In this document: piece after piece, positions 1,697 to 38,232 of the stretch
How the letters are laid out: the number at the start of each line of letters is the position of its first letter
How positions within the stretch are numbered: position 1 is the stretch's first letter
NCBI GenBank assembly: GCA_030620115.1
Contig: JAUXFG010000012.1
Location: forward strand, 1 to 40,309
Direction: 5' to 3'
DNA from: Candidatus Fermentibacterota bacterium
GTDB lineage: Bacteria; JAFGKV01
DNA length: 40,309 nt
The notes under the pieces: model-generated
The model's database searches: none
Seen by the model: the letters and a program-made list of their open reading frames with translations, nothing else
Told to the model about the DNA's origin: nothing
Position numbers and translations under genes: made by a program

Positions 1697-1825
1697 ACTT
1701 GCTCCCGGGAGACATTGCGAGCCATGGAATTTGGAGGAATGATGTGCCGGGTGCGGGAATTACGAATCGCTGGGATTCCACACGATCACTTGGGAAGGCT
1801 AATTGCGGATGGGAGACAAGGGGGC

Positions 1826-16892: not shown

Positions 16893-16934
16893 TAGCCCGG
16901 ACTTCTCACCAGCTTCCTGGTGAGAAATGCGGGC
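16893..16934. repeat. Compact MITE-like hairpin between convergent genes
   Basis: The element begins TAGCCCGG six bases after the TatP stop. A 17-bp stem (16896-16912 with 16917-16933) has 15 pairs around the loop CTTC. It is a minimal version of the element at 1516-1696. Its position between two convergent stops makes it a candidate bidirectional terminator, although it lacks a T-tract. Confidence 0.7.
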
Positions 16935-16954
16935 ATGGCACAACGCGGCCGTAT

Positions 16955-21090: not shown

Positions 21091-21281
21091 CAGCTTACTG
21101 TACCCCTCTCCAATGTCAAGAGACTCTATCGGGCTCATGAAGCCGCAGCCGTTCACGGTTTCACCGGACTTCAGGTCTCATATTCCCATCTATCCTCTAA
21201 GGAAAAGCCAGGGCTATGGGTTGACGAGGAAGACATAAACGTCCGTACTTAAGGCATCACCTGTTTTTTTTGCTGATCTTT

Positions 21282-21447
21282 GTCCGGACTTCTCAGAAGC
21301 CAGCGTCACGAAGTGGCAGAGAGGGCCCCGACTGTGTAGGCTCTGACGGCGTTTGCTCCTTTGCGATCTCTGCGATCGGAAGGTTACGAGGTCCACCGCC
21401 ATCCTCACCTCGATGTTCATGTCGGTGTTGTTGAGAAGTTCGGGCTA
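21282..21447. repeat. Decayed MITE-like element upstream of tldD
   Basis: The left end TCCGGACTTCTCAGAAGCC (21282-21300) and right end TTGAGAAGTTCGGGCTA (21431-21447) are inverted copies of the terminal motif seen at 1516 and 16893. The right end keeps the terminal CGGGCTA. The 130-base centre has no gene. The right end is 18 bases before the tldD start codon, so the element may supply part of the leader of that operon. Confidence 0.6.
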
Positions 21448-22831: not shown

Positions 22832-24142
22832 ATGGAACGATTACTTGAACTTGCTGCGGCAGTAGGGGATCAGGCGGAGGTCTACCACATTGAGAAGGAC
22901 GGGACCAACGTCTCGATTGAGAATTCAGAGCTCAATGAAATCGAAACAACGATACAGGCCGGCTATAGTCTCAGAATCATCAAGGACGGGAGGCTTGGCA
23001 TATCCTACACCAAGAATCTTCTGAACAGGGATGAACTCGTGCGGAGCGCTCTTTTGTCCATGGAAGGCGGTGTGAGTGGCGAGTTTGGTTTGCCGGCGCG
23101 ATCGGCTCTTCGGCTCTTTGATCCGTACGTTGAAGAGGTGACAAATCTGAAGGGTAGCGATCTGTACGATCGTGCAGCTGAGACGGTCGGCTACCTGAAG
23201 GGGAGGGTTTCGGGGCAGGTGAACGTTCATGGCTCCTTTGGTGTTGAATTCGTCAGGGTGATGAACAGCAAAGGGCTCGATGTCGCACAGAGGAGTTCCT
23301 TCTACTCGATATTCTCAAGCGTTCTTTACCCGAATTCCGAGACGTCCGTGTGGCATAATCATGTCACCCTTGGGCCTTCCAGTGTTCCGGATGAGGAGCT
23401 GGACCGCGTGGCGCGCCTTTTTCAGGCCGGCTTGCCTGAGGTGAACGCTCCAGCGGGTCGAATGAAGGTGGCTTTCCTGCCGGAAACCATGTTCAGTCTG
23501 CTGTGGCGCTTGGAAGCCGCATCTTCGGGCAGAGCCTTCTACGAGCGTATTTCTCCCATCCTCGAGAGACGTGGCGAGAAGATTTTTTCCGACATCCTGA
23601 CCATAGTCAACGACCCGACGGACACCCACCGATTTGACACACGGGTTTTCGACGATGAAGGGGTTCCCACAAAAAGGCTGCCCATCGTCGAGCGTGGCGT
23701 CTTCAAGAACATATACACGAATCTTGACTTCGCCGCCAAACTGGGGTTGGAACCCACGGGGAACGGCTTCAGGACGCAACGATGGGGAGGCGAGGAGATC
23801 GCCCTCCTGCCTACACCTGCTCTGTCGCACCTTACCATTGAGCCGGGACAATCGAGCCTGGATGAGATAATCGGGAATCTCGACCGGGGAGTGCTGGTTT
23901 TGGGGGTTCTGGGCCCACATTCAGGGAATATCTTGAACGGTGATTTCTCCATGGGCATTAACCCGGGCCTTTACGTGGAGAACGGCGCCATCAAGGGACG
24001 CCTGAGAGACGGCATGGTGGCAGGCAATATCTATGAGACAATGGCCAAGGCCGTCATGGTCGAGAATGCTGTTCGATTCAGTTCCGGGGGGTACTTCCCG
24101 GCAGTGGTTTTCGAAGATGTAAGTGTTGCCACTCGGGGATGA
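22832..24142 (+). CDS. pmbA: TldE/PmbA-type partner of TldD
   Basis: This 436-residue TldD/PmbA family protein lacks the HExxxH motif, as expected for the non-catalytic TldE subunit. Family segments include SIENSELNEIETTIQAGYSL, RIIKDGRLGISYTKN, VFDDEGVPTKRLPIVERGVF and SGNILNGDFSMGINPGLYVENG. ATG 22832 has GGGAGGCG 8 bases upstream and lies 2 bases after the tldD stop; an earlier in-frame ATG at 22745 would overlap tldD by 85 bases and is unlikely. The stop overlaps the first codon of the ATP-grasp remnant by 4 bases (24139-24142), so the three genes were one translationally coupled unit. Confidence 0.9.
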   Translation: MERLLELAAAVGDQAEVYHIEKDGTNVSIENSELNEIETTIQAGYSLRIIKDGRLGISYTKNLLNRDELVRSALLSMEGGVSGEFGLPARSALRLFDPYVEEVTNLKGSDLYDRAAETVGYLKGRVSGQVNVHGSFGVEFVRVMNSKGLDVAQRSSFYSIFSSVLYPNSETSVWHNHVTLGPSSVPDEELDRVARLFQAGLPEVNAPAGRMKVAFLPETMFSLLWRLEAASSGRAFYERISPILERRGEKIFSDILTIVNDPTDTHRFDTRVFDDEGVPTKRLPIVERGVFKNIYTNLDFAAKLGLEPTGNGFRTQRWGGEEIALLPTPALSHLTIEPGQSSLDEIIGNLDRGVLVLGVLGPHSGNILNGDFSMGINPGLYVENGAIKGRLRDGMVAGNIYETMAKAVMVENAVRFSSGGYFPAVVFEDVSVATRG

Positions 24143-25085
24143 ACATGAATGTCGTGTTCCTGTCGCCGCATTTCCCGCCTAACTTCTACTCATTCTGTGT
24201 GAATCTGCGTCGGATGGGCGCAAATGTCTTTGGATTGGCTGACGAAGCGTATGAAAGCCTCAGGCCTGAGCTCAAAGATGCGTTGAACGACTACTACCGC
24301 GTGGTTGATATGCATAGTTATGACGAGCTGTTGTCTGCTTGTGGGCATTTCACCCACCGCCACGGCAAGATCGATCGTATCGATTCACAAAATGAGTATT
24401 GGTTGGAGACGGAGGCGCGGCTTCGGACTGATTTCAACATCTTCGGCGTCAAGAACGATGAGATAGGAAATGTGAGGCTAAAAACACGGATGAAGGAGAT
24501 ATTTATACCTTTGACGGTCTAACAAATCGTGATGGTGATATTGTATTCTGCACTTCCCATACATATAGTCAGGGAATTCTGGAGACAGCCAGAGAAAACG
24601 TTGATGTCTACTACTATTCCCTCAGGGAATTACCCATGGATCTGGAGGAGGCCGGGCGCAAGGCCGTAAGGGCATTCAATATCCGCGAGAGATTTTTTCA
24701 TCTCGAGTTCTTTCGCACTGTCTCCAACAGTGAGCTCGTCGGCATTGAAATCAATGTGCGACCACCTGGGGGATTCACCATGGATATGTTCAATTACGCC
24801 AATGATATTGATCTGTATAAGGAGTGGGCGAATGTGGTTCTCAATAATCAGTTCTCATCTGAGTATTGCAGACCATACCACTGCTGCTATGTCGGTAGGA
24901 AGTCATCAATGGACTACGTCCATTCTCATGAAGAGATCATGAATACCTATGGTGAGCAGATCGTGTTTCATGAAGGACTATCACCGCTATTCAGCCTGAT
25001 GGGTGAATACGGATATCTTGTCAGATCACCGGATAATGAGACGATTTTCGAAGCAGCGGGCTTCATTCAGGAGAAACGGCGGTAG
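24139..25085 (+). pseudogene. ATP-grasp ligase gene broken by an internal deletion
   Basis: The first 118 codons (from 24139) are an N-terminal ATP-grasp domain: NVVFLSPHFPPNFYSFCVNL, later FGVKNDEIGNVRLKTRMKEIF, which normally leads to the ATP-binding lid. That frame stops at 24522. From about 24489 the frame shifted by one base reads DEGDIYTFDGLTNRDGDIVF, SHTYSQGILETARENVDVYY, then FFHLEFFRT and GIEINVRPPGG, the C-terminal half of the same enzyme family. The two halves meet inside GATGAAGGAGAT (24489-24500). By family length perhaps 80-100 residues are missing, including much of the ATP site, so the product is probably inactive. The final TAG (25083-25085) is also the first three bases of a repeat element. 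Confidence 0.82.
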
Positions 25086-25136
25086 CCCGGATTTCTCACC
25101 AGCCTCATACTCCAATCCCGCGGCGGACGCGGGATT
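25083..25136. repeat. MITE-like left terminus plus hairpin at the ATP-grasp stop codon
   Basis: TAGCCCGGATTTCTCACCAG (25083-25102) is the dispersed terminal motif and starts with the stop codon of the ATP-grasp frame. A perfect 9-bp hairpin follows, AATCCCGCG (25114-25122) with CGCGGGATT (25128-25136), loop GCGGA. No matching right end lies close by; a right-type end occurs at 26058-26076. Confidence 0.6.
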
Positions 25137-25176
25137 ACGCTTCGTCGGCCGTGGGACAGAGGTTTCAAGGAACGCA

Positions 25177-25515
25177 ATGAATGTGGAATACCACAAGTGG
25201 TGGAGCCCTGCACTACAACAAGATGCCGAGCTGAAGGTGCATGGCCATGCACTCAATTTCCTTTTTCGTCACCCGGATGTGTTTGATGGGGTGATTGCTT
25301 TGAGTGGGGTTTATGGGGCGAGATCCCTTTTGGGTGATTACATGGACGGCGAAGCATACGTCGTTTTCCCTCTTCTGCTGACCTCTGACCTCTGTCTTCT
25401 GACCTCTCCGGCGCGAAGCGGCGGTCCTTCTTCCGAGCGAGGTCTCGGAAGAAGCGTAGACTCTGCTATTGACAGAGACGAAGGATTCATGCAGACTGGC
25501 ATCCCCGTTCATTGA
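25177..25515 (+). pseudogene. COG4947-type esterase gene with internal and 3' deletions
   Basis: AAGGA 5 bases upstream of ATG 25177 suggests the native start. The first residues, MNVEYHKWWSPALQQDAELK, match the opening of COG4947 alpha/beta-hydrolase esterases. After KVHGHA the sequence jumps to LNFLFRHPDVFDGVIALSG, which in the family follows the Ser-nucleophile elbow (consensus G-x-S-x-GAYHA). About 80 residues including the catalytic Ser are absent. Homology continues through LLGDYMDGEAYV and then ends in low-complexity DNA (repeats of CTGACCTCT). The deletion junction falls on GTGCATGGCCATGCAC (25237-25252), a perfect palindrome. The product cannot be a working esterase. Confidence 0.72.
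25378..25454. repeat. CTGACCTCT short repeats and adjacent hairpin
   Basis: Around 25378-25407 the bases run CTGACCTCTGACCTCTGTC, then TTCTGACCTC, a short imperfect tandem repeat. A perfect 11-bp stem follows, CTTCTTCCGAG (25427-25437) with CTCGGAAGAAG (25444-25454), loop CGAGGT. No T-tract follows, so a terminator role is uncertain. Confidence 0.5.
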
Positions 25516-25544
25516 ACAACCCGGCTCTTTTCTTGAGGATGACT

Positions 25545-26021
25545 ATGCTAATCAGCAGCTTGATGGATTCCAGTCTCGTTGACGTCGGCACGCACATGGA
25601 TGGCAAGAAGGAGGTGCTTGAGAAACTCGTCGATCTTGCCGAGCAGCATGGCATGGTTACTGATCGTAAGACCGTACTCCGATCTCTCCTGGAAAGGGAG
25701 GGAATGTGCAGTACGGCCATCGGGAAAGGGGTGGCAATTCCACATCCTAAAGAAGGCTTGCCCGGCGCATTTGACGGTGTGGCCTTCAGTGCCGTGAGGA
25801 TCGATGGAGGCCTCGACTTGGACGCTCCCGACCAAAAACCGGTTCAGCTGTTCTTTCTGGTAGGGGCGGAGGATCGCCGGGAACATCTCCTTATTTTGGG
25901 GAAGTTGGCCAGACTGCTGCGCAACAACGATCTGAGAGAAGATCTCATCGGGGCACAAACGTCGGAGGAGTTCGTCGAGCGGATGCAGGCGGCTGAGCTT
26001 AGCATGAACAACTCACGCTGA
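25545..26021 (+). CDS. PTS EIIA-type (PtsN/FruA-like) regulatory protein
   Basis: The 158-residue protein has the EIIA(Ntr/Fru) fold: KKEVLEKLVDLAEQHGMV, LLEREGMCSTAIGKGVAIPHPKEG with the phosphorylatable His at residue 67, and VQLFFLVGAEDRREHLLILGKLARLLRN. ATG 25545 is favoured, with TGAGG 6 bases upstream; ATG 25539 and TTG 25512 are too close to or ahead of that site. No HPr, EI or EIIBC gene is seen in the window, so it is more likely a regulator of the PtsN kind than part of a sugar transporter. It follows the eroded tldD-ATP-grasp-esterase unit on the same strand. Confidence 0.85.
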   Translation: MLISSLMDSSLVDVGTHMDGKKEVLEKLVDLAEQHGMVTDRKTVLRSLLEREGMCSTAIGKGVAIPHPKEGLPGAFDGVAFSAVRIDGGLDLDAPDQKPVQLFFLVGAEDRREHLLILGKLARLLRNNDLREDLIGAQTSEEFVERMQAAELSMNNSR

Positions 26022-26057
26022 GTTCTTCGCTGCTTCGCGATCCCGCCTCCTGGGCAG

Positions 26058-26076
26058 GAGTGAGAAATGCGGGCTA
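26058..26076. repeat. MITE-like right terminus at the PF13625 gene stop codon
   Basis: GAGTGAGAAATGCGGGCTA is the dispersed terminal motif in right-end orientation. On the minus strand it begins TAGCCCGC, and that TAG (26074-26076) is the stop codon of the minus-strand gene. It overlaps the arm of a small hairpin, CTCC-TGGGCA-GGAG, at 26047-26060. Confidence 0.6.
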
Positions 26077-27930
26077 TTCCTTTATGTCGACTTCTACGAA
26101 GACTTCCTCTGCTATGTGATGCAGGTTCTGCGGCAACGAGTTCTCCAGAAAGGCCTCCACCTCTTCCAGCGTCCAACCCAGCTTCCGGCTCCGCAGGAGC
26201 GATTGCTTCGTCACCCGGAATCTGCATGCCCGATCAACACCAAGGATATCAGCCACTTCGGCAGCCTTTCTCAATCGTTGGAGCGGGGTCTGGATCGGGA
26301 GATAGAACTCACCGCTTGCGGCAACCTTGATGGATTCCTCGGGCGCTTGCCCGGCTTCCTCCTCGGGAGGCGTCTTTTTTGTGACGCCCCTGACATAGAG
26401 GAGGCCGGCATGGTCTCTGGCGATTTCGATTTCGTGGGCCCACCACAGAGTTGTGGCCAGTGATTCCAATAGCGGCGGCGATGAATCGTGTGGGGCATTG
26501 AGGATCTCAGTCACGGGAGCAAGGTCAGGAGCGGTGGCCAATAGCCTTCGAAAGCCCGGCGACCCGATTAATAGACTCGTGACGCCCGAAATCGGGGTCC
26601 ACCTCTTCAGCGCTCCTGAGAGCTCAAGAAGGAAGCTTCGCAATCTGCCAACAAGATGTGTCATAGGACCCGGATTTCCCAGGCGGCACGCCGACGCCCG
26701 TGTCTCATCCCATGAGGAGAGGATACCCAGACAAGAGACAGCCACCTCTTGGAATGCCATGGGACCTTTGGCAATGAGTTGCTCTGCCTCGGCAGATGGT
26801 TCGATTCGGTCCGTTTCCCCCGCCGCACATCTGGCGAGCCAATCGACATCCCACGCCACAGACAGGAGAAACCGCTGATACTGTTGGGCGATCCCCAGCA
26901 AACGGGCCAACCGATCCACGTGGATCATGCTCGGTGTGCCATCTTTTGTGGCAGGGGGCGGCATGATGCCGAGTGCCACGATAAAGCGTTGAAGGTCTAG
27001 GCCAAGATTCCCCGGAGGGGCACTTTGGAGCAGGCTTGATTCCCGTGCCCGACGAACCGATTTGGCGTATCGTTTGAACATGGGTGGCAGGGCCTTTGCG
27101 ATGGGTTTCTCAGCCTCCAGTGAGATCATGAATTCCTTGAGCGCTGAACCGGGATCGAGGGTTTTCGGTCTGACGAGGCCAAGATAGAGCAGCTCCTGCA
27201 ATGCATTGTGACTTCCGGATCCGTGGTATCGCATATATCGGGGCCACGAGAAGACCTCGGGAGAACCGGCCCCGAGAAGAGACGCCAATCTGGAAGCAGG
27301 TTGCGACGATGCGGACAGATGCATGGTCTCGATGGCCAGGAGCTGACGGAGAGAGAGCCCCGGTATCTGCGTTTTCCACGACTGACGCAGGTGGAGATAG
27401 ATGGAAGCCACTCCCTGGAGAGCACGGGATGTGGAACCAGAAGTCCGGATGGCTTGGCGGGGGATCACCCCCTGTGCCAGATACGCCACCAAAGCTTGGG
27501 CCAAGCTCCCGTTGAGGGTCCATGCTGCGTCGGAAAGGAAGGCATACTCGAGAGGAATGAGTGCATGTCGGTGCTCATCGATCATGAAACCCAAACCGAG
27601 TTCCAGTATCCGGTTGGTGAGGCCCGCAGGAAGAGGTGGTGGGGCAAGATCCATGAGCAACCGCTTCAGTGCGTCTCTGTAGTTCCGACGGTCTGTATCA
27701 TTGAGTTGTCGGAGTTGATGTGAAACCCACTCTTTCCGGCCGAGGTAGCGATAGAGTTTATCCTCAAGCTGAAGGCCTCGGAAATGGTCGCCCCGTGTGA
27801 GCCCCAATTCGAGCTGTTCCGCCATATGGGCCACCAGCGCCGGGCTGGCATCAAGAATCTGTGATAGGAGAATAGGTGGTTTGACCCTCCGTGATTTGCC
27901 CGGCGTTCCCGCACGCTTGCTCTGACTCAA
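26074..27930 (-). CDS. Helicase-associated (PF13625, XPB/Ssl2-like) domain protein without helicase core
   Basis: The C-terminal region, about residues 541-612 (GEFYLPIQTPLQRLRKAAEV to GWTLEEVEAFLENSLPQNL), matches the helicase-associated domain found N-terminal to XPB/Ssl2-like helicases. The remaining 540 residues are mainly helical with winged-helix-like stretches. No Walker A or B motif is visible, so there is no helicase core. Stand-alone proteins of this type are widespread in bacteria but not characterised, to my knowledge. TTG 27930 is preceded by AGGAG 8 bases upstream and lies 13 bases after the cphA stop, so the two genes should be co-transcribed. The stop codon TAG coincides with a repeat terminus. 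Confidence 0.7.
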   Translation of the reverse strand: MSQSKRAGTPGKSRRVKPPILLSQILDASPALVAHMAEQLELGLTRGDHFRGLQLEDKLYRYLGRKEWVSHQLRQLNDTDRRNYRDALKRLLMDLAPPPLPAGLTNRILELGLGFMIDEHRHALIPLEYAFLSDAAWTLNGSLAQALVAYLAQGVIPRQAIRTSGSTSRALQGVASIYLHLRQSWKTQIPGLSLRQLLAIETMHLSASSQPASRLASLLGAGSPEVFSWPRYMRYHGSGSHNALQELLYLGLVRPKTLDPGSALKEFMISLEAEKPIAKALPPMFKRYAKSVRRARESSLLQSAPPGNLGLDLQRFIVALGIMPPPATKDGTPSMIHVDRLARLLGIAQQYQRFLLSVAWDVDWLARCAAGETDRIEPSAEAEQLIAKGPMAFQEVAVSCLGILSSWDETRASACRLGNPGPMTHLVGRLRSFLLELSGALKRWTPISGVTSLLIGSPGFRRLLATAPDLAPVTEILNAPHDSSPPLLESLATTLWWAHEIEIARDHAGLLYVRGVTKKTPPEEEAGQAPEESIKVAASGEFYLPIQTPLQRLRKAAEVADILGVDRACRFRVTKQSLLRSRKLGWTLEEVEAFLENSLPQNLHHIAEEVFVEVDIKE

Positions 27931-27942
27931 TTGGTTCCGCTC

Positions 27943-30576
27943 CTATTCTGTGCCAGTCGGCCTATGATCCGCAGCCGCATTTCTCGTGTGTCGGATCGCT
28001 CCCATAGCATGGTCAGCACGGCTCGTAAGAATCAGGATCAGGTCACGAGGTTGTGCCGCATCGAGTGCCGAAGCGATGGCCCGATCCTCCTGATCAAGAT
28101 GGTGGATCACGTCTGGCCCCATGCCCGCTGATTCGAGGGCATGGGCCAACAGCTGCACGCCTCTGTGGGGTTCTCGATCAGACAAGTGAGATGGGTTGAT
28201 GTAAAGGAAGATTTCCGAGGCGATTCCCGCCATGCTTTCCCCCGAGCTGGCGATATCATCGTCGTCCTGATCTACCCCCGGACACATCACGACGAGGATC
28301 CTCTTGTAACTACTCTTTGCCAGAAAGGAAGCAAGGGCACCATGGGCGCTCGCCGTATGTCCACAATCGATCATGACCTGATGATTGCCATGGGGAAAGA
28401 TGTTTGTTCTGCCCGGATTCTGGGCGTAGGACGGCAAGAACGAGAGAAGCCCTTCACGAATCGTCTCAACCTTGACCCCGAGGCTATGGGCAGCCGCAAT
28501 GGCGGCCATGGCATTCTGTATGTTGAATTCTGCCAAGCCTTCGAAGGCCATAGAGATGTCGGTAGTCCTGGCCACGGGAGTGACCGTCTCACCTTTCATG
28601 AGCGCAAGGAACCCATTCTGGTTCACCACGGCCGTACCGCCCCTGTCGACATGTTGCACTATGATTTCGTTTTCGGGATCCATGGTGAAGAAAACAATTC
28701 GCTCATAGCACCGAGCAGTCATTTCCACACAGCGTGGATCATCGGCGTTGAGCACGGAACTCCCCCCTGACCTCACGACCTCTGCCACCAGGGCCTTGAG
28801 GTACGCCAGATCATCGAGGTCTCTGATATTGCCGAACCCGCGCTGGCCTTCTCGCACGTTCAGGACGATACCCACGTCCGCATTCTTGTATCCGAGACCG
28901 TACTTGAGCATGCCCGCCCTGGCCGTCTCAAGAACGGCACAGTCAATGGTCGGATCCCTGAGCACCACTCCGGCTGAATACGGGTCACCCCGATCCCCCT
29001 TGGCCATCTGACGCCCTGCGATGTACATCCCATCAGTACATGACATGCCGACGACAAAACCAGCGGTTTTCATGAGGTGGGCGGCAAGACGGACGGTGGT
29101 GGTCTTCCCGTTGGTTCCGGTCACGGAGATGATAGGGATATCATGTGTTGTGCCTGAAGGAAACAACATGTCCACCAGGGGCGTCGCCACGTTTCGATGC
29201 GTCCCCTCCGAAGGAAAGAGGTGGGCTCGGAAGTCGGGCGAGGCGTTCACCTCTATGACGGCTCCCCCATTCTCCAGGATGGAAGCGCTGATGCAAGGGC
29301 TGATGATGTCGATTCCCGCCACATCAAGGCCGATGATCTTGGCGGCTCGCTCCGCGATGCGGCGGTTGGTGGGATGGACGTCGTCCGTGACATCCTCGGC
29401 TGATCCTCCTGTGCTCAGATTCGACCTGAGCTCGAGGTCGAACCTTTGATCATCCGAAAGCACCGTATCCAAGGTATAGCCGTGCTGTTGCAGGAGTACC
29501 TCTGTGGCAGGCGATACCGCCAACCGAGTCATTGCTTTTTCGTGGCCGAAACCCCGTCTCGGATTTCGATTCTCGATCTCGATCAACTCGGAGATGGTAT
29601 GCTTCCCATCACCAATGAGGTGTGCCGGGATCCTGCGGATGGCGGCGATGAACTTCCCATCTATCACCAGGAGACGATAGTCGGCACCTGGGAGCATTTG
29701 CTCAACAATGCTTACGTGTGCGCAATCCATTGCTCTCTCAAATGCGGCACGGAGATCGAGTTCATTATCCACGCCGACGGTGACGCCTCTTCCATGATGG
29801 CCATCGAGAGGTTTGACCACCACTGGGTACCCGATCGTCTCCGCCAGCTTCTTGGCCGACTCCGGGTCAGCACAGGTATCATTTCTCGGCACCGGTATGC
29901 CGGCGTCCCGCAGCATTCTCGTCGTCAATGCCTTGTTTCCCGCGGTCTCCACGCCGACGAATGAGGTGTCGGATGTAATAGTCCCTTTGATACGTTTCTG
30001 GTACTTGCCTTCTCCAAGCTGGATGAGATCGTATCGGTCCAGTCTGAGCACCGTGATATTGCGGTGCTCCGTTTCATCGATTATCGCGGCGGTCGAAGGG
30101 CCCAGCTTGTGTTCGTCGAGAATATCAAGCAGTTTCTTGATGGTTTTCTCGACATCATAATCCCTGTTGTTGAGAATTGATTCGACAAGATTGAAGGCTT
30201 CGATCCCTGCGAGGATACCTGCCTTATCCACCCAGTAACTATACACCACGTTATAGACGCCCGACTTTCCCGCCGAGCGGGTTTTGCCGAAACCGACCTT
30301 CATGAAGGCGATGCACTGCAACTCAATCGCAATGTGTTCGATGACATGACCCAGCAGTGTGCCCTCTCGCACGCGTGAGATGAATCCCCCCCGCACGCCC
30401 TTGCTGCATTTGTGCTCATAGATGGAGGGGAGAGAGGCAAGAAGCTTCTCGGCAAACCCGGGAAAGGACGACGTGAAGACCTCATTATACTCTTCAAGAT
30501 CCAGTGCCATCACGATGACGGGTCGCAGGCTAAAGTAGTTCGCTCCCTCCAGCGCCTTGATATCCAGTATCTTCAT
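27943..30576 (-). CDS. cphA: Cyanophycin synthetase
   Basis: At 877 residues this has full CphA1 length. The N-domain starts MKILDIKALEGANYFSLRP and contains LGHVIEHIAIELQ. An ATP-grasp domain (about 210-470) contains PVVVKPLDGHHGRGVTVGV and INASPDFRAH-type metal ligands (VIEVNASPDFR). A Mur-ligase-like domain (about 475-877) has the P-loop VTGTNGKTTTVRL. The enzyme adds Asp to the backbone in the ATP-grasp site and Arg to the side chain in the Mur-like site, making the storage polymer multi-L-arginyl-poly-L-aspartate in the cytoplasm. ATG 30576 gives the canonical N-terminus; a GTG lies 3 codons upstream. No cyanophycinase is seen in the window. speD lies 102 bases upstream. Confidence 0.95.
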   Translation of the reverse strand: MKILDIKALEGANYFSLRPVIVMALDLEEYNEVFTSSFPGFAEKLLASLPSIYEHKCSKGVRGGFISRVREGTLLGHVIEHIAIELQCIAFMKVGFGKTRSAGKSGVYNVVYSYWVDKAGILAGIEAFNLVESILNNRDYDVEKTIKKLLDILDEHKLGPSTAAIIDETEHRNITVLRLDRYDLIQLGEGKYQKRIKGTITSDTSFVGVETAGNKALTTRMLRDAGIPVPRNDTCADPESAKKLAETIGYPVVVKPLDGHHGRGVTVGVDNELDLRAAFERAMDCAHVSIVEQMLPGADYRLLVIDGKFIAAIRRIPAHLIGDGKHTISELIEIENRNPRRGFGHEKAMTRLAVSPATEVLLQQHGYTLDTVLSDDQRFDLELRSNLSTGGSAEDVTDDVHPTNRRIAERAAKIIGLDVAGIDIISPCISASILENGGAVIEVNASPDFRAHLFPSEGTHRNVATPLVDMLFPSGTTHDIPIISVTGTNGKTTTVRLAAHLMKTAGFVVGMSCTDGMYIAGRQMAKGDRGDPYSAGVVLRDPTIDCAVLETARAGMLKYGLGYKNADVGIVLNVREGQRGFGNIRDLDDLAYLKALVAEVVRSGGSSVLNADDPRCVEMTARCYERIVFFTMDPENEIIVQHVDRGGTAVVNQNGFLALMKGETVTPVARTTDISMAFEGLAEFNIQNAMAAIAAAHSLGVKVETIREGLLSFLPSYAQNPGRTNIFPHGNHQVMIDCGHTASAHGALASFLAKSSYKRILVVMCPGVDQDDDDIASSGESMAGIASEIFLYINPSHLSDREPHRGVQLLAHALESAGMGPDVIHHLDQEDRAIASALDAAQPRDLILILTSRADHAMGAIRHTRNAAADHRPTGTE

Positions 30577-30678
30577 GGGCGCCACTGCCAGCCCACCCCC
30601 GTCAGGGGATGCTGCGGAGTCGAAGGAAAGGTCATTGCACGGCAGGCTTCAAGCCGGTTGACGAGCCTTTCTATCCGA

Positions 30679-31062
30679 TCACACGAAGTAGGGTGGCTTT
30701 TTCTCATCGAATTTCTCAAGTGCGCCCCGTCCGATCTCAAGGATCTTGTGATTGGATGGGCTCATTGTGGAAATGATGTGGTCTACCGCTCGCTGAGGAA
30801 AGACTCGATTCCCGCAGGTGAATACATCCACGGCTGCATAGCCGTATTCCGGCCATGTATGAATGGAGAGATGCGATTCCGCGATGATCACGACTCCACT
30901 CACACCCTGGGGCTTGAACTTCCTAAAATCGTGGTGCAGTATCGTAGCCCCAGCTTCTTCGGCCGCCCTCACCAGCGATTCCTGTACGAATTCGAGGTTG
31001 TCTAGCTGAACCGAATTCGAGCCATAAAGCTCTAAGAGAAGGTGCGTTCCTAGAGTCTCCAT
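30679..31062 (-). CDS. speD: S-adenosylmethionine decarboxylase proenzyme
   Basis: This 127-residue bacterial (class 1B) AdoMetDC has all the key sites. The self-cleavage Glu62-Ser63 in AESHLSIHTWPE yields the pyruvoyl group on Ser63. His68 and Cys83 (VFTCGN) occupy the expected processing and catalytic positions. AAAGGG upstream supports ATG 31062; 26 further in-frame upstream codons have no support. The enzyme makes decarboxylated AdoMet, the aminopropyl donor for spermidine. A membrane-embedded spermidine-synthase-like gene lies at 35284, but it is unlikely to be the partner. Placement directly upstream of cphA links two sinks of arginine-derived nitrogen (inference). Confidence 0.94.
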   Translation of the reverse strand: METLGTHLLLELYGSNSVQLDNLEFVQESLVRAAEEAGATILHHDFRKFKPQGVSGVVIIAESHLSIHTWPEYGYAAVDVFTCGNRVFPQRAVDHIISTMSPSNHKILEIGRGALEKFDEKKPPYFV

Positions 31063-31248
31063 CCGTGGGCCCTTTCCAATGCATATTGCATGAGCAGGGA
31101 TAGACTGATAAGACGATCCTGGCCTATCGGGGTCGACCATGTCGCCACACCGGACAAGCCAGGATGTGTAACAGGCTCAGTGCTCCAGCCAGAACTTCAA
31201 GTGATATCGCGTGGTCTTATTCGCTGAGAGAGTTGCGTCCAAACTCAG

Positions 31249-31422
31249 CTATCCAGGCATAGAGATCGCGCCTTCAGGGCACTCATCGACACAAACACCG
31301 CACTCGATGCAGTCATCCTCGCTGATCACTGCAACACCGTCCATGGTGATCGCCTCGACTGGGCAGACCGGGACGCACGATTCGCAGCCCGTGCATTTGT
31401 CACCGTCAACTACCGCCGCCAT
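31249..31422 (-). CDS. 2[4Fe-4S] ferredoxin
   Basis: This 57-residue protein has two complete cluster motifs, CTGCESCVPVCPVEAI and CIECGVCVDECPEGAI, so both [4Fe-4S] clusters can form. It is a small soluble electron carrier of the clostridial type. GAGGAG 8 bases before ATG 31422 fixes the start; longer frames to 31557 run through non-coding DNA. The presence of a low-potential ferredoxin fits an organism with anaerobic metabolism. The next gene upstream (31660) is divergent. Confidence 0.93.
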   Translation of the reverse strand: MAAVVDGDKCTGCESCVPVCPVEAITMDGVAVISEDDCIECGVCVDECPEGAISMPG

Positions 31423-31659
31423 TTGTTCAACTCCTCGGAAAAGGCTATAACTCCATTGATGATAATCAGGGCTCTCCACCGGAGCCCGTAAGGCGCATAA
31501 TGAACAGACAACTAGGCGAATGAATGCCCTGGACGTCAAGTATTTCTCCCCCCGCAACGCCGTGGTAGATCCTGCGCTAGGGGAGATGGGTCACTCCTGC
31601 TTGACAGCGCGCGCCGTGCGAACCAGTTTCAGCTTCTCGTTGCCAGGAGGAGGTGTTGG

Positions 31660-33360
31660 ATGGCGAGAGATGCTGAGGGGAGAGATCTGATCCGTGCCGC
31701 GGAACAGCTGATTGTTCTGCGTGCGCCGCGAGATCTGATTCGAACTACATTGGTGTGGATTCGGCGGATGTCGGCGACAAAGGAAGTCGCCTTCCTGTCA
31801 GAGGAAGACAAGGGATATGCGGCCTATACCCTGAGGGGTGACCATGAGCTCCGGCGAGACTGGTACGAGCGGCAAGAAGAATTCGATTTCGGGATACACG
31901 ATGGACTGGGGGTCTCGGGAGAGGATCTCCGGATTCCACTGATCTTTGGGAAAAGGCAATGGGGAGAGCTTCTCCTAAGGGGATCGGCGAATGCTTTGAC
32001 ACCGGAATGTCGGGACCAACTTGCCGCCTTGGGGAGACTGACGGCGAGGGCCTTCAGGAATGCGTTCGTATATGACCGCCTCCGTGCGCGAGTGAAGGGT
32101 GTGACCGCCCTTTGGAAGGTGGGAACCACCATCAGCTCATCCCTCAATCTGCAATATCTTCTTGAGCTTATCCTTTCCTCGCTACGTGAGGTGGTTCCCT
32201 ATGATGCAGCCGGAATTTATCTTCTGGATCGGGATGGTGAGCGGCTGACTGCTGCCACACTCCGCGGCTATCGATCAGAGAAGGAGAAGGTGGCCAGGGC
32301 AAAGGTGGGGCAGGGCCTTATCGGGTGGGCGACCAAGCAGGGCGATGATCTTTTGGTGGATGATGTGGTCGCGAACCCTCATTACATAGTTGCGCGGGAG
32401 GAGACCAGATCGGAGATGGTAGCCCTGATTCGACGGGGCAGCCGCATAGTTGGCGCGTTCAATGTGGAGAGCGATGAACCGCATGCCTATTCGCGGATTG
32501 ATCTTTTCCACCTCAAGGCCCTGGCCAGCCAGGCGGCGATTGCGGTGGATAATGCCATGCTCTATCGAGAGGCATTGGAGAAACGACAGCTTGACTCTGA
32601 GCTGTCTCTGGCTCGAGACATCCAGCAGAAGTTGCTGCCTAGGGAAGCGCCGCGTCTTCGTGGCTGGGAAATGGCAGGTCTCAATGTTCCGGCGAAACGT
32701 GTGGGCGGAGATTACTTTGATTTCATTGAGGTGAGCCGGGGCATCATGGGGATCTCAATCGCAGATGTATCGGGCAAAGGAATCCCCGCCGGCCTTGTTA
32801 TGGCAACATTTCGTGCCAGTCTCCTGGCTGAGATCCTGAACGAATATTCCATAGAAGGCATATTCAGGAAAGTGAACGAGCTTCTGGTACGGAGTACCGA
32901 TCCCGGGGTGTTTGTCACGGCCATCTACGGCACTCTAGAGCTTGGCAGCGGTGTTTTTACGTATTGCAATGCCGGCCATGTCGAACCATTGATCATCCGG
33001 CAAGGTGAAGCACCGCGGTTCGTTTCGGGTGGGGATATCGTGCTTGGATCGTTTCCACAAGCACGATACAGGCAACGTCTCGTGACGCTGGAGCATGGGG
33101 ATGTATTGCTCCTCTACACCGATGGGATAAGCGAGGCCATGGGACGAGGTGGTGAGGAGTTTGGCAGCGTACGATTAGCCTCGCTTGTTGAAGATCACAG
33201 AGAGCTTCCTGCGGTGGGCATCCGGGATCGCATTTACGCGGAGGTTTTGGAGTTCGCGGCAGATCCGACCGTACTCGACGACATGACGGCGGTGGTGGTG
33301 AAAAGGGTGGGTGAAAGACAAGGCGCGGCTTCGCGCCCTAGTGACTCGGGGAATAGTTGA
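31660..33360 (+). CDS. GAF-domain SpoIIE/RsbU-type PP2C serine phosphatase
   Basis: A GAF domain spans about residues 145-305 (KGVTALWKVGTTISSSLNLQ through IAVDNAMLY). It is preceded by a weaker GAF-like N-terminal region. The SpoIIE phosphatase domain follows a short coiled coil (ELSLARDIQQKLLP) and has metal-binding Asp residues in VGGDYFDF (about 347), ADVSGKG (about 368) and DDMTAVVV (about 539). Such proteins dephosphorylate anti-sigma-factor antagonists in partner-switching pathways; no RsbV or RsbW gene is present here. GGAGGAGG before ATG 31660 is a strong ribosome binding site. The next gene begins with a TTG that overlaps its stop (TTGA), implying coupling. Confidence 0.9.
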   Translation: MARDAEGRDLIRAAEQLIVLRAPRDLIRTTLVWIRRMSATKEVAFLSEEDKGYAAYTLRGDHELRRDWYERQEEFDFGIHDGLGVSGEDLRIPLIFGKRQWGELLLRGSANALTPECRDQLAALGRLTARAFRNAFVYDRLRARVKGVTALWKVGTTISSSLNLQYLLELILSSLREVVPYDAAGIYLLDRDGERLTAATLRGYRSEKEKVARAKVGQGLIGWATKQGDDLLVDDVVANPHYIVAREETRSEMVALIRRGSRIVGAFNVESDEPHAYSRIDLFHLKALASQAAIAVDNAMLYREALEKRQLDSELSLARDIQQKLLPREAPRLRGWEMAGLNVPAKRVGGDYFDFIEVSRGIMGISIADVSGKGIPAGLVMATFRASLLAEILNEYSIEGIFRKVNELLVRSTDPGVFVTAIYGTLELGSGVFTYCNAGHVEPLIIRQGEAPRFVSGGDIVLGSFPQARYRQRLVTLEHGDVLLLYTDGISEAMGRGGEEFGSVRLASLVEDHRELPAVGIRDRIYAEVLEFAADPTVLDDMTAVVVKRVGERQGAASRPSDSGNS

Positions 33361-34457
33361 ACGCATCGAAGATTCAACAACTCCCTAGCATGCAGCGTCT
33401 TCACTGGACTCTGGGAGGGATCTCGTGTTCAAGGCTTTACCGTTCCCCGACATCTTTCCCATCAGAGAAGGATCTCACTGACGGGGTGACGGTGGCCGTT
33501 CCCACGTGGAACGGTGCAGATCTTTTGCCTGCGTGTCTCGAAGCGATTTTGGCACAGACTTTGCCTGCGGATCGTGTTATCGTGGTGGACAACGCTTCCG
33601 TAGATCGTACTGAAGCGGTGGTTGCGCAATATTCGGCTGCCGACTATGTGAGGCTGGAGAAGAATGTGGGCTACAGCGGCGCCGTGGTCCACGTGCTTGG
33701 TCTCGTATCCACGCGATTTTTGGCAGTGGTCAACAATGATGCAGTCCCCGATGCTTCTTGGTTGAAACTCCTGGTTGACGCCTTGGCATTGGACGCCTCT
33801 CTGGCAAGCGCCTTTCCGCTCTCCCTCCGTCCGGACGGGCGTGTCGATACTGCCGGCGATGTGGTGACCAAAGCCGGCTTCTTCTATAAACGTGGCTATG
33901 GCCGGGAGCCATGTGATGTCCAGAAAAGCGGTGTCCGAGGCTTCTGTACGCCGGGGGTGGCGCCCTTGTACCGGGTCAAGGCCCTTTTGCAGGTAGGAGG
34001 ATGGGACGCAAGTCTTTGTGCGTTGTATGAGGATGTGGAGTTGTCGCTTCGCTTGTGGACCGGTGGCTGGGATTCTATCTATGTGCCCGAAGCCCGGGTC
34101 ATTCACCACCAAGGATCCACTACCTCCAGATTCATTGGCTCACGCGAATTCCTTGCCGGCAGAAACGAGGAAGTGGTTCTCTTCAAGCTCCTGCCGTGGA
34201 AGACTCTGATGACTCTTGCGCCATCTCATCTTGCCTATAATCTCCTGTCGTTTCTATCTTCCCTCCTCCGTGGTGCCCCATTTCCCTTTCTTGCCGGGAA
34301 GCTGGCCTTTCTGGCGAGTCTTGGACGAGTCCTGAAGGCGCGAGGCATGGTGACGCGCCGGAGGCAGATCAGGATTTCGTTACTGGAAGGGGATTGGTTG
34401 AGAACATGGCTGGGGCTCTCCAGGTTCGGGCGGAGACGGGCACCGTCGGCATCTTGA
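33357..34457 (+). CDS. GT2 family glycosyltransferase (rhamnosyltransferase-like)
   Basis: The GT-A fold has the usual markers: VAVPTWNGADLLPACLEAIL, VIVVDNASVDRTEAVV, a DXD-equivalent in VVNNDAVPDASW, and the catalytic-base region LYEDVELSLRLWTGG followed by VIHHQGSTT. A hydrophobic C-terminal stretch (LAYNLLSFLSSLL and the following segments) may associate with the membrane. The enzyme would add a sugar to a lipid-linked or surface glycan. TTG 33357 overlaps the phosphatase stop; ATG 33390 is a possible later start. The N-terminal 35 residues are not conserved in the family, which leaves the start open. Confidence 0.87.
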   Translation: MNASKIQQLPSMQRLHWTLGGISCSRLYRSPTSFPSEKDLTDGVTVAVPTWNGADLLPACLEAILAQTLPADRVIVVDNASVDRTEAVVAQYSAADYVRLEKNVGYSGAVVHVLGLVSTRFLAVVNNDAVPDASWLKLLVDALALDASLASAFPLSLRPDGRVDTAGDVVTKAGFFYKRGYGREPCDVQKSGVRGFCTPGVAPLYRVKALLQVGGWDASLCALYEDVELSLRLWTGGWDSIYVPEARVIHHQGSTTSRFIGSREFLAGRNEEVVLFKLLPWKTLMTLAPSHLAYNLLSFLSSLLRGAPFPFLAGKLAFLASLGRVLKARGMVTRRRQIRISLLEGDWLRTWLGLSRFGRRRAPSAS

Positions 34458-34553
34458 CCCCCATATAGAGGGTTATACTTTGGGTGCCTATTCACCTCAC
34501 CGGCACAGGACCTGGTGGATTCAACCCTAGACGGTAGTGGACAGACGAGAACG

Positions 34554-35297
34554 ATGAACTCGACGCTTGTGATCATTCCCACGTACAATGAACGGCAGAA
34601 CATAGGGCGCCTGATTCCTTTGATTCTCGAGAAGGATGAGACCATAGAGGTCCTTGTGGTGGACGATTCCTCCCCGGATGGCACTGCGGATGTGGTCAAG
34701 GCGCTTCAGAAGAGGGATGGACGGGTAAGACTGATTGAGAGACCGCGGAAGGATGGGCTCGGCAAGGCGTATGTGCATGCATTCAAGCATGCGCTTTCCT
34801 GCGGTTTTGAGAGAATCATCAGCATGGATGGTGATTTCTCTCACGATCCCATGTATCTGGGCCGCATGATGACACTCCTCGATGCTCACGATGTCATCAT
34901 CGGCTCTCGATATGCCATGGGCGGCGGAACGGAGAACTGGAGCATCTGGCGGAGGATTCTCAGCAGAGCCGGCAACATGTACGCGGGAATGGTGCTCTCC
35001 ATGCCCATATCCGACTATTCGGCGGGTTTTGTGGGGTACCGTGCCGAAGTACTGAAGGCGATTCCTCTGGACCAGATACGCTCGGAAGGATATTCTTTCC
35101 TCATGGAGATGAAGTTTTGGTCAGCATGCTTGGGGTTCAACCTTGTGGAGATGCCAATTGTGTTCACGGAGCGACGGCAGGGGAGATCCAAGATATCTCG
35201 CGCCATCCTCTTTGAGGCGATCTGGGTGGTGTGGCGGCTGCGTCTCAAGGTTCCGGCACAGGCAGCGATGATAAGGCGGGGCCATGGGAAAGGTTAG
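34554..35297 (+). CDS. Polyprenol monophosphomannose synthase-like glycosyltransferase (DPM1-type)
   Basis: The 247-residue enzyme has a short GT2 catalytic domain without membrane helices, as in DPM1. Motifs are VIIPTYNERQNIGRLIPLIL, VLVVDDSSPDGTADVV, GLGKAYVHAFKHAL, the DXD motif in MDGDFSHDP, and MEMPIVFTERRQGRSKI-like at the end (EMPIVFTERRQGRSKIS). The expected reaction makes polyprenyl-phosphate-mannose (or a related hexose) from the nucleotide sugar on the cytoplasmic face. The GT-C enzyme at 16955-18451 is the type that uses such donors. ATG 34554 gives the standard N-terminus; a GTG at 34515 is in frame. It overlaps the next gene by 14 bases. Confidence 0.9.
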   Translation: MNSTLVIIPTYNERQNIGRLIPLILEKDETIEVLVVDDSSPDGTADVVKALQKRDGRVRLIERPRKDGLGKAYVHAFKHALSCGFERIISMDGDFSHDPMYLGRMMTLLDAHDVIIGSRYAMGGGTENWSIWRRILSRAGNMYAGMVLSMPISDYSAGFVGYRAEVLKAIPLDQIRSEGYSFLMEMKFWSACLGFNLVEMPIVFTERRQGRSKISRAILFEAIWVVWRLRLKVPAQAAMIRRGHGKG

Positions 35298-37659
35298 CCC
35301 CCCGGGTAGGCTCGTTCTGGCGGCTATGGCCGCTCTCTCGGGCGGCCTTCTTGTCCTTGAGCTCACATTGACCCGGATCTTCAGTGTCACCATGTGGTAT
35401 CATTTCGCGTTCATGGCCATTTCCATAGCCATGCTAGGTCTTTCGGCGGGCGCCATATTCGTGTACCGGTTTGGGCGGAAGCGCACGGACGAAGAGCTGT
35501 TCAACATGCTGCCAAACTTGTGCGCCGTATTCGGGGTGATGGCGATCGCCAGCATGGCTGTGGTACTCCGTCTTCGATTCGACAATACTTTTGGTGTGCA
35601 AGGGGTAGCGCAACTGCTGCTCATCTATACTCTGACGACCGTGCCTTTTGTGGTGGGAGGCGGTGCAATCGCTATTGCGGTTCGGAAATACGGCCCATCC
35701 ATGAGCAGTATCTATTCTGCGGATCTCCTGGGTGCGGGTCTTGCGTGTATTCTTGTGATTCCCCTTCTGCGGATGTTTGGCGGCCCTGCCACCGTCTATG
35801 TTGCGGCACTTCTCGTCATTGGGGCGGGGCTTCTGTTCTCAAGAGGCCCCGGGAGGAGAGTGACACTGGCGAGTCTGATTCTGGTGCTGATTCTCTTTGG
35901 CACCAACACAGGAACCGGCCTTTTGAGAGTGGTGTGGGCCAAAGAGAAACACGAGGAAGGGCTTCTCTATGAAGCGTGGAACTCATTCTCTAGGATAACG
36001 GTTTTCCCCACGGAAGAGGGATGGAATACCCAGTTCTTCGGATGGGGGATGAGTCCCGTGTATGACGGGCCCCTCCCGCGGCAGCTTGGCATGCATATCG
36101 ATTCCTATGCCGGTACACCCATATCCGAATACTCAGGTTCCGCCCAGGAGCTGGTCCATCTCCGGTATGATGTGACGGCATTAGCTTACCATCTCAGGCC
36201 TTCAGGCACTCACCTGGTGATCGGTCCCGGCGGTGGGCGGGATATCTTGGCCTCCCTTGCCATGGGAGCCGACTCCGTGGTGGCAGTGGAACTTAATCCC
36301 GAGGTGGTGAAGGCCGTCAACGTGGTATTCGGGAATTTTTCCGGCGCTCCTTATTCGTTGCCCGGAGTCGAGGGCGTGGTCGATGAGGCTCGCTCGTTTC
36401 TTCGACGAGACCGGCGGACATATGACGTAATCCAGGCATCACTCGTTGATACATGGGCGGCTACCGCGGCAGGCGCCTTTACCTTGAGCGAGAACACGCT
36501 CTATACCGTTGAAGCGATGAATGATTACCTCCAGCGGCTGAGCGATCATGGGCTCGTGTCGATCTCACGATTCCTCTTCGAACCCCCTCGGGAAACACTG
36601 CGTCTATTCGCCGTGGCGCTCACCGCGCTCCATGCCAGGGGGAGCGAAGACCCGGCTGACCACCTTGCCATTCTCTCATGCAGAGGTGTCGCCACACTTC
36701 TCGTGGGAAAACAGCCGCTTTCCCCAGTGGACCTTGATGCGCTGAGAGCGGTGGCGGACAGCCTGCAATTCTCGGTGGTACATCTCCCCGGCCACTGGAC
36801 TCACCCGGTGTTCTCCGAAATGGCCCGCCGATACGATGATCCTCGTTTCTATGACCACTACCAGTTCGATGTGAGTCCGACCACCGATGACAGGCCATTC
36901 TTTTTCAACATGGTCAGACCCAAGGATTTCTTGAAAGTATTTCAATTGAATGATCTTCAGGGTCAGACCCATAGCTACGATGCAGTCTTTATTCTTATGT
37001 CAGTTTTAGGCATTGCCTTCCTCATGACAGTCATGCTTATTGTGTTGCCTGCTCGTACTCTCATTAAAGGTGCAGGAAGAACAGGGCTGCTTTTTGCATT
37101 ATACTTTGTTGCAATTGGTCTCGGATTCATGCTTGCCGAGGTCACTCTGTTACAGAAACTTGTGCTTTTTCTCGGACATCCGGTTTATGCACTGTCCGTG
37201 GTGTTGCTTGGGCTTCTGTCCTTTGGGGGTCTCGGCAGCTTCTGGACCAAAAGAGTCAGGCCGGGACGGGAGAGAATGGTGGTGGCCGTCGCCGGTCTCT
37301 GGCTTGTTGTTCTATTCATCATCGCCCGTGAATACATGGATTTTCCCCTCATGCTATTCCTTGGTTACTCCAAAACAGCGCGTATTGCGCTGGCGTTGGC
37401 GCTTCTCTTGCCCGCCGGACTTGCCATGGGCATGCTCCTTCCACTCGGCATTCGCGCGGCGGCATCGTGGCGGAAGAGCGCGACGCCGTGGCTCTGGGGC
37501 GTCAATGGAGCGGCCTCGGTCCTTGGATCTGTCTTGGCGTTTGCGCTGGCCATGAACTTGGGATTCAAGATGACGTTTCTCTTGGCCGCGGCATGCTACG
37601 GCATGGCGGTAGGAGTGTTTCTGCTACTCGGCATTGGTGGGGGGAAGCGCCGTGCTTGA
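35284..37659 (+). CDS. Membrane-embedded spermidine synthase-like methyltransferase-fold protein
   Basis: This 791-residue protein has an N-terminal set of membrane helices (about residues 10-210, starting LVLAAMAALSGGLLVLELTL, TRIFSVTMWYHFAFMAISIA). A spermidine-synthase-like domain follows at about 300-450, with VIGPGGGRDILASLAMGAD and VVAVELNPEVVKAVN. Further helices run from about 567 to the end. The nucleotide-binding glycines and acidic ribose ligand are present, so AdoMet or dcAdoMet binding is likely. The usual DxxDP-like catalytic acid region reads DVIQASLVDTWAA, so true aminopropyl transfer is doubtful. Function of these fused proteins is unknown. Its ATG lies inside the DPM1-type gene end, so the two are coupled. 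Confidence 0.85.
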   Translation: MGKVSPPGRLVLAAMAALSGGLLVLELTLTRIFSVTMWYHFAFMAISIAMLGLSAGAIFVYRFGRKRTDEELFNMLPNLCAVFGVMAIASMAVVLRLRFDNTFGVQGVAQLLLIYTLTTVPFVVGGGAIAIAVRKYGPSMSSIYSADLLGAGLACILVIPLLRMFGGPATVYVAALLVIGAGLLFSRGPGRRVTLASLILVLILFGTNTGTGLLRVVWAKEKHEEGLLYEAWNSFSRITVFPTEEGWNTQFFGWGMSPVYDGPLPRQLGMHIDSYAGTPISEYSGSAQELVHLRYDVTALAYHLRPSGTHLVIGPGGGRDILASLAMGADSVVAVELNPEVVKAVNVVFGNFSGAPYSLPGVEGVVDEARSFLRRDRRTYDVIQASLVDTWAATAAGAFTLSENTLYTVEAMNDYLQRLSDHGLVSISRFLFEPPRETLRLFAVALTALHARGSEDPADHLAILSCRGVATLLVGKQPLSPVDLDALRAVADSLQFSVVHLPGHWTHPVFSEMARRYDDPRFYDHYQFDVSPTTDDRPFFFNMVRPKDFLKVFQLNDLQGQTHSYDAVFILMSVLGIAFLMTVMLIVLPARTLIKGAGRTGLLFALYFVAIGLGFMLAEVTLLQKLVLFLGHPVYALSVVLLGLLSFGGLGSFWTKRVRPGRERMVVAVAGLWLVVLFIIAREYMDFPLMLFLGYSKTARIALALALLLPAGLAMGMLLPLGIRAAASWRKSATPWLWGVNGAASVLGSVLAFALAMNLGFKMTFLLAAACYGMAVGVFLLLGIGGGKRRA

Positions 37660-37730
37660 CTTTGAGCGACGACGGCATGAAGACAATCGGATGATTGTTG
37701 ATCGGGCAGTGATCCCGACCGAATCGTGAC

Positions 37731-38201
37731 ATGGTGAGGGGAGGAGGAGTGGAAAAACAAAGGGAACCAGGCCCGCCAGAGGAGCTCTCTCGAGAAGAAG
37801 AAGCGGCAATCCGTGAAGAGATGCGTCAGAAGTTGCTTGAGCAAGAAGAAGAGACGGAACGGGAAGTTGCGCACCAGGAGTCGGAACGGCGCCGCTTGAT
37901 GGAATCTGAACGACTCCGGTGGCGGGTAATCGAAGAAGAGACCGAACGGTTTCACGGGGAGCACGGTCGGGTTCGTTACGTTTCGTCTTCAGGGAAGGTT
38001 CTGTGGCTCACGCCGGAGCAAGTAGCGCAGAGAAGAGCCCGCAAGAGTAAGTCGCGTCGTCGAGACAAGCGTGCGTCGGCTCGCAGGCAGCCAAAGAAGT
38101 GGGCCGCCCTGCAACTGAAAACAATGCTGGGCTCCATAATCATCTCGCTTTGTGTGGTTGTTTTCATCGCGGTGATCATCTTTGCTACGGAATTTCTATA
38201 G
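37731..38201 (+). CDS. Hypothetical charged coiled-coil protein with C-terminal membrane helix
   Basis: I do not recognise this 156-residue protein. Residues about 15-75 are dominated by Glu, Arg and Gln in heptad-like order (EELSREEEAAIREEMRQKLL, then further EEETEREV repeats), a likely coiled coil. A basic cluster follows (QRRARKSKSRRRDKRASARR) and a single C-terminal membrane helix (MLGSIIISLCVVVFIAVIIF), so it is probably tail-anchored in the inner membrane facing the cytoplasm. It lies between the spermidine-synthase-like gene and the WbaP-like gene. Its TAG stop is also the first three bases of a repeat element. Confidence 0.65.
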   Translation: MVRGGGVEKQREPGPPEELSREEEAAIREEMRQKLLEQEEETEREVAHQESERRRLMESERLRWRVIEEETERFHGEHGRVRYVSSSGKVLWLTPEQVAQRRARKSKSRRRDKRASARRQPKKWAALQLKTMLGSIIISLCVVVFIAVIIFATEFL

Positions 38202-38228
38202 CCGGAAGTTGGTGAGAAGTGCAGGCTA
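38199..38228. repeat. Shortest MITE-like copy, bridging a stop codon and the next gene
   Basis: The 30-bp element begins TAGCCGGAAGTT and ends GGTGAGAAGTGCAGGCTA, with TA at both outer ends. It looks like an internal-deletion form of the same palindrome family. Its first three bases are the stop codon of the coiled-coil gene, and its right end is followed by A, giving TAA. Confidence 0.6.
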
Positions 38229-38232
38229 ACCA

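Follow-up and report, generated by a model that had tools for sequence, protein, structure and literature searches.

Stop codons borne by a TA-inserting palindromic repeat match the availability of its target sites in a deep-branching bacterium

BOX repeats in Streptococcus pneumoniae encode the stop codon of 36 CDSs, with no sign that these are truncated relative to orthologues (PMC3049150). ERIC-type repeats insert at TA and may overlap gene 3′ ends (PMC2759123), and in Coxiella burnetii a copy of QMITE2 alters the end of enhC (PMC5896051). The repeat described below shares this placement at the ends of genes. It was followed from the window, i.e., the whole stretch of 40,309 nucleotides analysed here (contig C212), to the 4.10-Mb draft genome of which the window is a part and which is 98% complete.

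The end motif of the element, CCCGNAYTTCTCAC, has about 455 matches in the 4.1-Mb draft genome, and the reversed pattern used as control has none. The genome-wide count was made with CCCGNATTTCTCAC, allowing at most one mismatch, and the motif together with flanking YTAR is found 457 times, compared with 0 in the control. For detailed analysis, 1.9 Mb in 141 stretches (about 46% of the genome) were read. Alignment of 38 two-ended copies gives a consensus of 183 nt, a length that is also the modal one (183 bp), and this consensus folds as a single long imperfect hairpin, or palindrome, of −112 kcal/mol. No protein gene lies within the 183-nt consensus. The inverted ends, TAGCCCGGACTTCTCACCGG..., form a terminal inverted repeat (TIR) of about 25 bp, and the end sequence can also be written TAGCCCGGACTTCTCACC. 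Truncation to a single end is frequent among the copies, and some have shrunk to a hairpin of 44–50 bp in which both ends are joined. The 183-bp size, the absence of a gene, the TIRs of about 25 bp and the high copy number (about 455 ends) are those of a MITE, and the element is a TA-flanked MITE of the ERIC/RUP type. The family relatives compared were two genomes, both of one sister genus, and the element is absent from them (9 and 11 motif matches, compared with 10 and 6 for the reversed-pattern controls). An Rfam covariance-model search of the window, with its one full-length copy, one short copy and several partial ones, returned 0 matches over the gathering score, and the consensus has no match among the phage and plasmid records searched. 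The copies and the affected genes in the window are as follows.

1516–1698, plus strand: full-length element copy of 183 bp, intergenic, right end degraded; recognised from its TIR pair and fold
16893–16936, plus strand: short element copy, the two ends joined in a 44-bp hairpin; fold of −28 kcal/mol
21280–21447, plus strand: diverged two-ended copy upstream of a TldD/PmbA-like gene
24139–25085, plus strand: probable broken ATP-grasp gene, from three-frame translation; its last codon is the element TAG
25083–25166, plus strand: one-ended truncated copy with a TCCCGCGGCGGACGCGGGA hairpin inside; the TAG at its terminus closes the upstream frame; inner boundary approximate
26025–26076, minus strand: one-ended copy with an internal TCCTGCC..GGCGGGA hairpin; inner boundary approximate
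26074–27930, minus strand: 618-aa gene with a weak PF13625 match, ending at the element
37731–38201, plus strand: gene for a 156-aa charged/coiled-coil protein with a membrane helix at its end; stop TAG at the internal break of the half copy
38202–38229, minus strand: half copy with its terminus at 38226–38229 (GCTAA read on the plus strand) and its internal break at about 38200

An earlier note on this DNA had proposed that the first bases of the element, TAG, act as the stop codon of three genes in the window. At 25083–25085 this holds, as TAG followed by CCCGGATTTCTCACCAG is a genuine end of the element and terminates the open frame 24636–25085. Judged from its sequence, that frame is probably the C-terminal piece of a broken ATP-grasp pseudogene, of which an N-terminal piece (about 24139–24510) and a C-terminal piece (about 24516–25085) lie in different frames with the middle missing. 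The ATP-grasp identity is based on a motif reading and a weak match to L-amino acid ligase (E 0.025); a Pfam search of the broken gene gave no match, and the 24636–25085 frame has no homolog in the sister genus. On the minus strand, TAG at 26074–26076, followed by CCCGCATTTCTCAC, is also a true terminus and is the stop of the 618-aa gene. Homologs of this gene in both sister-genus genomes end with PQN..H.IEETF....K and then TAG, two residues earlier, and the stop therefore lies near its ancestral place, with no truncation of the protein. The stop at 26074–26076 is a sound case of an element-borne stop. The gene ending at 38199–38201 does stop with TAG on the plus strand, but this TAG lies at the internal break of a half copy on the minus strand and is not an element terminus. 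What is left of the copy is about 30 bp long (GCCGGAAGTTGGTGAGAAGTGCAGGCTAA), and its TAG side matches internal element sequence (consensus ...GCAGCAGAAAGCTGGTGAGAAGTCCGGGCTA). Because its only terminus, ...GCTAA, is at 38226–38229, the arrangement “TA-element-TAA” that had been offered as an example of a recreated stop is a misparse. The note had also placed a copy just past the stop of a gene, and such a copy is present near 16893, where 5 bases, ACCTA, separate it from the preceding TGA of the DctP/TRAP gene at 15886–16887.

The target site was read from 67 two-ended copies, which have TA on both sides. The base to the left of TA is C in 52% and T in 37%, and the base to the right is G in 52% and A in 37%; flanks beyond these adjoining bases are random. 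These preferences give the logo Y-TA-R, and the target is therefore YTAR. Several insertions sit in other repeats, empty copies of which occur in the same genome and are colinear with the joined flanks, as for the insertion in stretch L047 at 11515 (AATCAGCCACACCG-TA-GCTCTCGCC) and that in L055 at 17243 (GTGCTTTACACTTTCGG). Colinear empty sites are also provided by element copies nested in the element itself. The YTAR-flanked copies and the colinear empty paralogous sites are what insertion of a MITE at TA with duplication leaves behind. For IS630 the preferred and duplicated target is TA, and for IS5 it is YTAR. The duplication observed here covers at least TA, and is either TA (IS630-like) or YTAR (IS5-like): the outer and inner bases agree in 35 and 39 cases, compared with 27 and 31 when shuffled (p ~0.017 on each side), and the left and right 4-mers are identical in 18 of the 67 copies.

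For the position of insertions relative to genes, a home-made codon-model gene caller was used, which gave 1477 genes over 46% of the genome, in stretches that were partly picked for carrying the motif. Within the 1.9 Mb, TAR is the stop codon of a called gene at 35 of 337 element ends, and two of these 35 read TGA. Every other offset within 200 bases holds at most 2 ends, and the positions immediately upstream average 0.77 each, which bears out the expectation of a genome-wide excess at stop codons over chance. Merging the ends leaves 226 insertions: 34 at stops, 168 intergenic and 24 that a called gene runs across. Stop codons make up 220 of the 1339 non-coding YTAR sites (16.4%), and they hold 34 of the 202 non-coding insertions (16.8%; p = 0.85), while a null model in which any TA can be used (7.2%) is rejected (p = 3e-6). 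Restricted to two-ended copies, 13 are found at stops compared with 9.7 expected from tetramer-specific rates. Among coding sites, the 1148 of the CTAA or TTAG type carry 2 copies and the 611 of the CTAG type carry 0 (2 at 1759 sites in all), compared with 41 copies at 911 intergenic sites. The real excess at stops is thus explained by target choice and the loss of coding insertions, and the placement at stop codons is in all likelihood a matter of chance landing at YTAR, not of recruitment for ending genes.

We consider it very likely that the stop-codon placement as a whole follows from the way such an element chooses its target. The element, a non-autonomous MITE that is about 183 bp long and targets TA, inserts at YTAR and duplicates at least TA. 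Each of its ends begins with TAG or TAA, and insertion into the TA of a TAA or TAG stop therefore rebuilds the stop in place and leaves the protein unchanged. Insertions into coding sequence would be lost by selection, and we infer that purifying selection is the cause of the coding deficit. In a genome as poor in TA as this one, stop codons account for about 1/6 of the non-coding YTAR sites, and about 1/6 of the surviving insertions are therefore found in stops by chance. Mobilisation would have taken place in trans, through a DDE transposase that has since disappeared or was not found.

That the element entered the TA of existing TAA or TAG stops, as the earlier note supposed, is supported by the duplicated TA in YTAR and the colinear empty paralogous sites, and also by the reading frames and the ends of homologous proteins. 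If the element instead inserted anywhere in coding DNA and truncated genes, its TAG would act as an early stop in one of three frames. The stop frame outnumbers the frames that read into the element by 35 to 6, a ratio that departs strongly from the one third expected (p = 9e-12). The sister genus was searched with the C-terminal 120 residues of each affected protein, and in 18 of 19 informative genes the match reaches to within 0–17 residues of the element-borne stop, although most of these C-terminus comparisons are based on match coordinates and open-frame lengths; L099 is uninformative here. Several homologs are bounded at the same place by a stop or by the length of the open frame (125 aa versus 126 for L098, 338 versus 338 for L049, and 228 versus 238 for L154), and the window gene at 26074–27930 exceeds its homologs by 2 residues. 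Homologs extending well past the stops, which the note had named as grounds for refutation, are limited among these genes to a single truncation. This is the nucleotidyltransferase-like gene L119, with 103 aa compared with an open frame of 244 aa in the sister genus, where the base after the right TA gives TAC, a tyrosine codon. TAY follows 4 of 13 intact two-ended copies at stops, and in these the codon before insertion may have been other than a stop; they may be a minority of truncations, or decayed. Truncation is already contradicted for most genes, and as a general account it has hardly any probability. Going by the frame counts and the sister-genus proteins, the stops are mostly kept.

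A different reason for the position of the element would be that it is retained at gene 3′ ends since its hairpin terminates transcription or protects the 3′ ends of mRNA, as the note had suggested. The consensus hairpin is indeed very stable (−112 kcal/mol), and there is a slight, non-significant excess of insertions between convergent genes. Convergent gene pairs enclose 33 insertions, where YTAR sites predict 25.8; the observed and predicted figures are 32 and 41.7 for divergent pairs and 105 and 102.4 for co-directional ones (chi-square ~4.3, not significant). The share at stops is predicted by the availability of YTAR (16.8% of insertions compared with 16.4% of available sites), and the gene end that faces an element end is as often a 3′ end (161) as a 5′ end (159), which speaks against selection at 3′ gene ends. 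An intrinsic terminator combines a GC hairpin with a U-tract, and outward U-tracts are found at 9 of 337 ends, not above the 3.7% for randomly chosen intergenic positions. Moreover, two of the window copies, those at 25083 and 38199, are truncated and do not form the palindrome. Single copies may act as terminators, but the placement bears no sign of such a function, and we give very little probability to retention for ending transcripts or protecting mRNA.

As for the mobilising enzyme, an IS630 parent is disfavoured since no DDE_3 gene was found, and an IS5/IS4-type parent since none of the 8 DDE_Tnp_1 (PF01609) loci is surrounded by paired element ends. An IS1380 parent is also disfavoured, the single match being below cutoff and located at one of the 8 DDE_Tnp_1 loci. 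Among 11 long-range end pairs, no autonomous copy is obvious. The genome does have 4 Y1_Tnp genes, three of which have single element ends in the fetched flanks, and together with the short hairpin copies of 44–50 bp this could suggest a REP mobilised by a RAYT rather than a DDE-type MITE. The density of ends near the Y1_Tnp genes is, however, not clearly above background. REPs lack symmetric termini, a duplicated TA and colinear empty sites, and the modal length of 183 bp is at odds with a palindrome of 20–40 bp. The GTAG tag of a REP is not seen either, as the base before TAG is C or T, with G in 3% of ends. We therefore assign little probability to a REP origin, and retain the DDE-type MITE as the preferred assignment.

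Within the element, larger hairpins are seen to replace short segments with fixed borders, which start with C and end with G. The replacement hairpins include TCCCGCGnnnnnCGCGGGA, TCCGCCAGCTGGCGGA and TCCCGCACCCAA..TTGGGTGCGGGA. Cases fall at consensus segments 130–136 (13), 157–163 (8), 56–64 (7) and 120–126 (5), and segment 95–101 is replaced by two different hairpins (10 and 6 cases). On a tree of the copies, built from the short sequences that are left when hairpins are removed, the hairpin states are scattered almost like shuffled labels, with 9 changes for 10 copies, 5 for 6 copies and 5 for 5 copies. As far as a tree from such short sequences goes, this suggests repeated replacement events or heavy recombination between copies. 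That the element serves as substrate for a precise exchange of hairpins, taking place independently in different copies, is rather doubtful; if true, this would be a site-specific replacement process unlike the insertion of any known transposon.

The accounting given here amounts to a simple quantitative rule for why stops in bacteria are often encoded by TA-targeting repeats: when coding sequence is barred to insertion, stop codons are the neutral TA sites that remain. BOX, ERIC, RUP and Correia repeats are open to the same test, and overlaps between repeats and stops should not be taken as recruitment. An abundant, lineage-specific MITE is also added from a deep-branching and poorly sampled bacterial group.

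Compared with the known systems, the element is close in form to ERIC/RU-1 and related enterobacterial MITEs, which are geneless, intergenic palindromes of 100–200 bp with terminal TA and TA duplication (PMC2759123). The sequences are unrelated as far as tested, with no match in Rfam or in phage and plasmid records. In the reported ERIC cases the repeat removes the stop and lengthens the protein (PMC2759123), whereas the present element mostly keeps the stop. BOX resembles it in being intergenic, structured and of high copy number, with repeat-encoded stops at gene 3′ ends, but is built of boxA, boxB and boxC modules with other ends; the part of the BOX account used here reports no test against available target sites (PMC3049150). 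Pneumococcal RUP is likewise small with inverted ends and is believed to owe its movement to an IS630-type transposase acting in trans, but has a proposed parent IS in its genome (PMC3049150), unlike the present element, for which none was found. QMITE2 is also a MITE with a stable stem-loop, and the copy in enhC lies at the 3′ end and alters both C-terminus and stop (PMC5896051); it differs in having unique direct repeats for each copy instead of a fixed YTAR, and in being an isolated example where the pattern here is genome-wide. Given the parallels with BOX, ERIC and QMITE2, the behaviour of the element is therefore of a known kind, and what is new is the sequence family and the accounting by available sites.

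Short internal segments of the element are, in many copies, precisely swapped for larger hairpins (TCCCGCGnnnnnCGCGGGA and two others). The replaced segments lie at positions 56-64, 95-101, 120-126, 130-136 and 157-163 of the element consensus, each starting with C and ending with G, and the replacements are spread over the copies in a scattered pattern, as though of repeated origin. Examples, in the window and in other stretches read from the same draft genome (L-numbers), are:

Window 25083-25166, hairpin-bearing element copy
L099 16584-16785, hairpin-bearing element copy
L106 3440-3650, hairpin-bearing element copy

The genome contains four Y1 (RAYT-type) transposase genes, on contigs C187, C118, C200 and C241; none of the tested short hairpins was found within the fetched flanks of these four genes.

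The window also holds a damaged coding sequence, the N-terminal and C-terminal parts of which are in separate frames, with the middle absent:

Window 24139-25085, broken gene, probably ATP-grasp

Elements are also found inside elements, inserted at one identical place:

L047 2316-2498, nested element copy
L054 3394-3576, nested element copy
L055 9025-9207, nested element copy

Because the same nesting recurs at these three loci, each composite was apparently copied as a whole when it spread. Besides the element, another dispersed repeat family of about 80-120 bp (...CAGGACAGGCCGGGAAGTGCTTTACACTTTCGGAACCCTCCTTGCAATGACTGAGG...GGTCATCGCGAGCGACAG) is present in more than 15 copies in the genome sample read:

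L055, flanks of 17243, second repeat family; paralogs in L062, L126, L134, L165 and others

Where an end of the element is read outward, its sequence ...GTGAGAAATGCGGG(C)TA makes an ATG or GTG available, and our home-made gene caller assigned gene starts at such ends at 13 loci, for example:

L067 near 3303, gene start called at element end
L091 near 2014, gene start called at element end
L104 near 6498, gene start called at element end

These 13 starts may be an artefact of the caller, or they may be genuine start codons supplied by the element.
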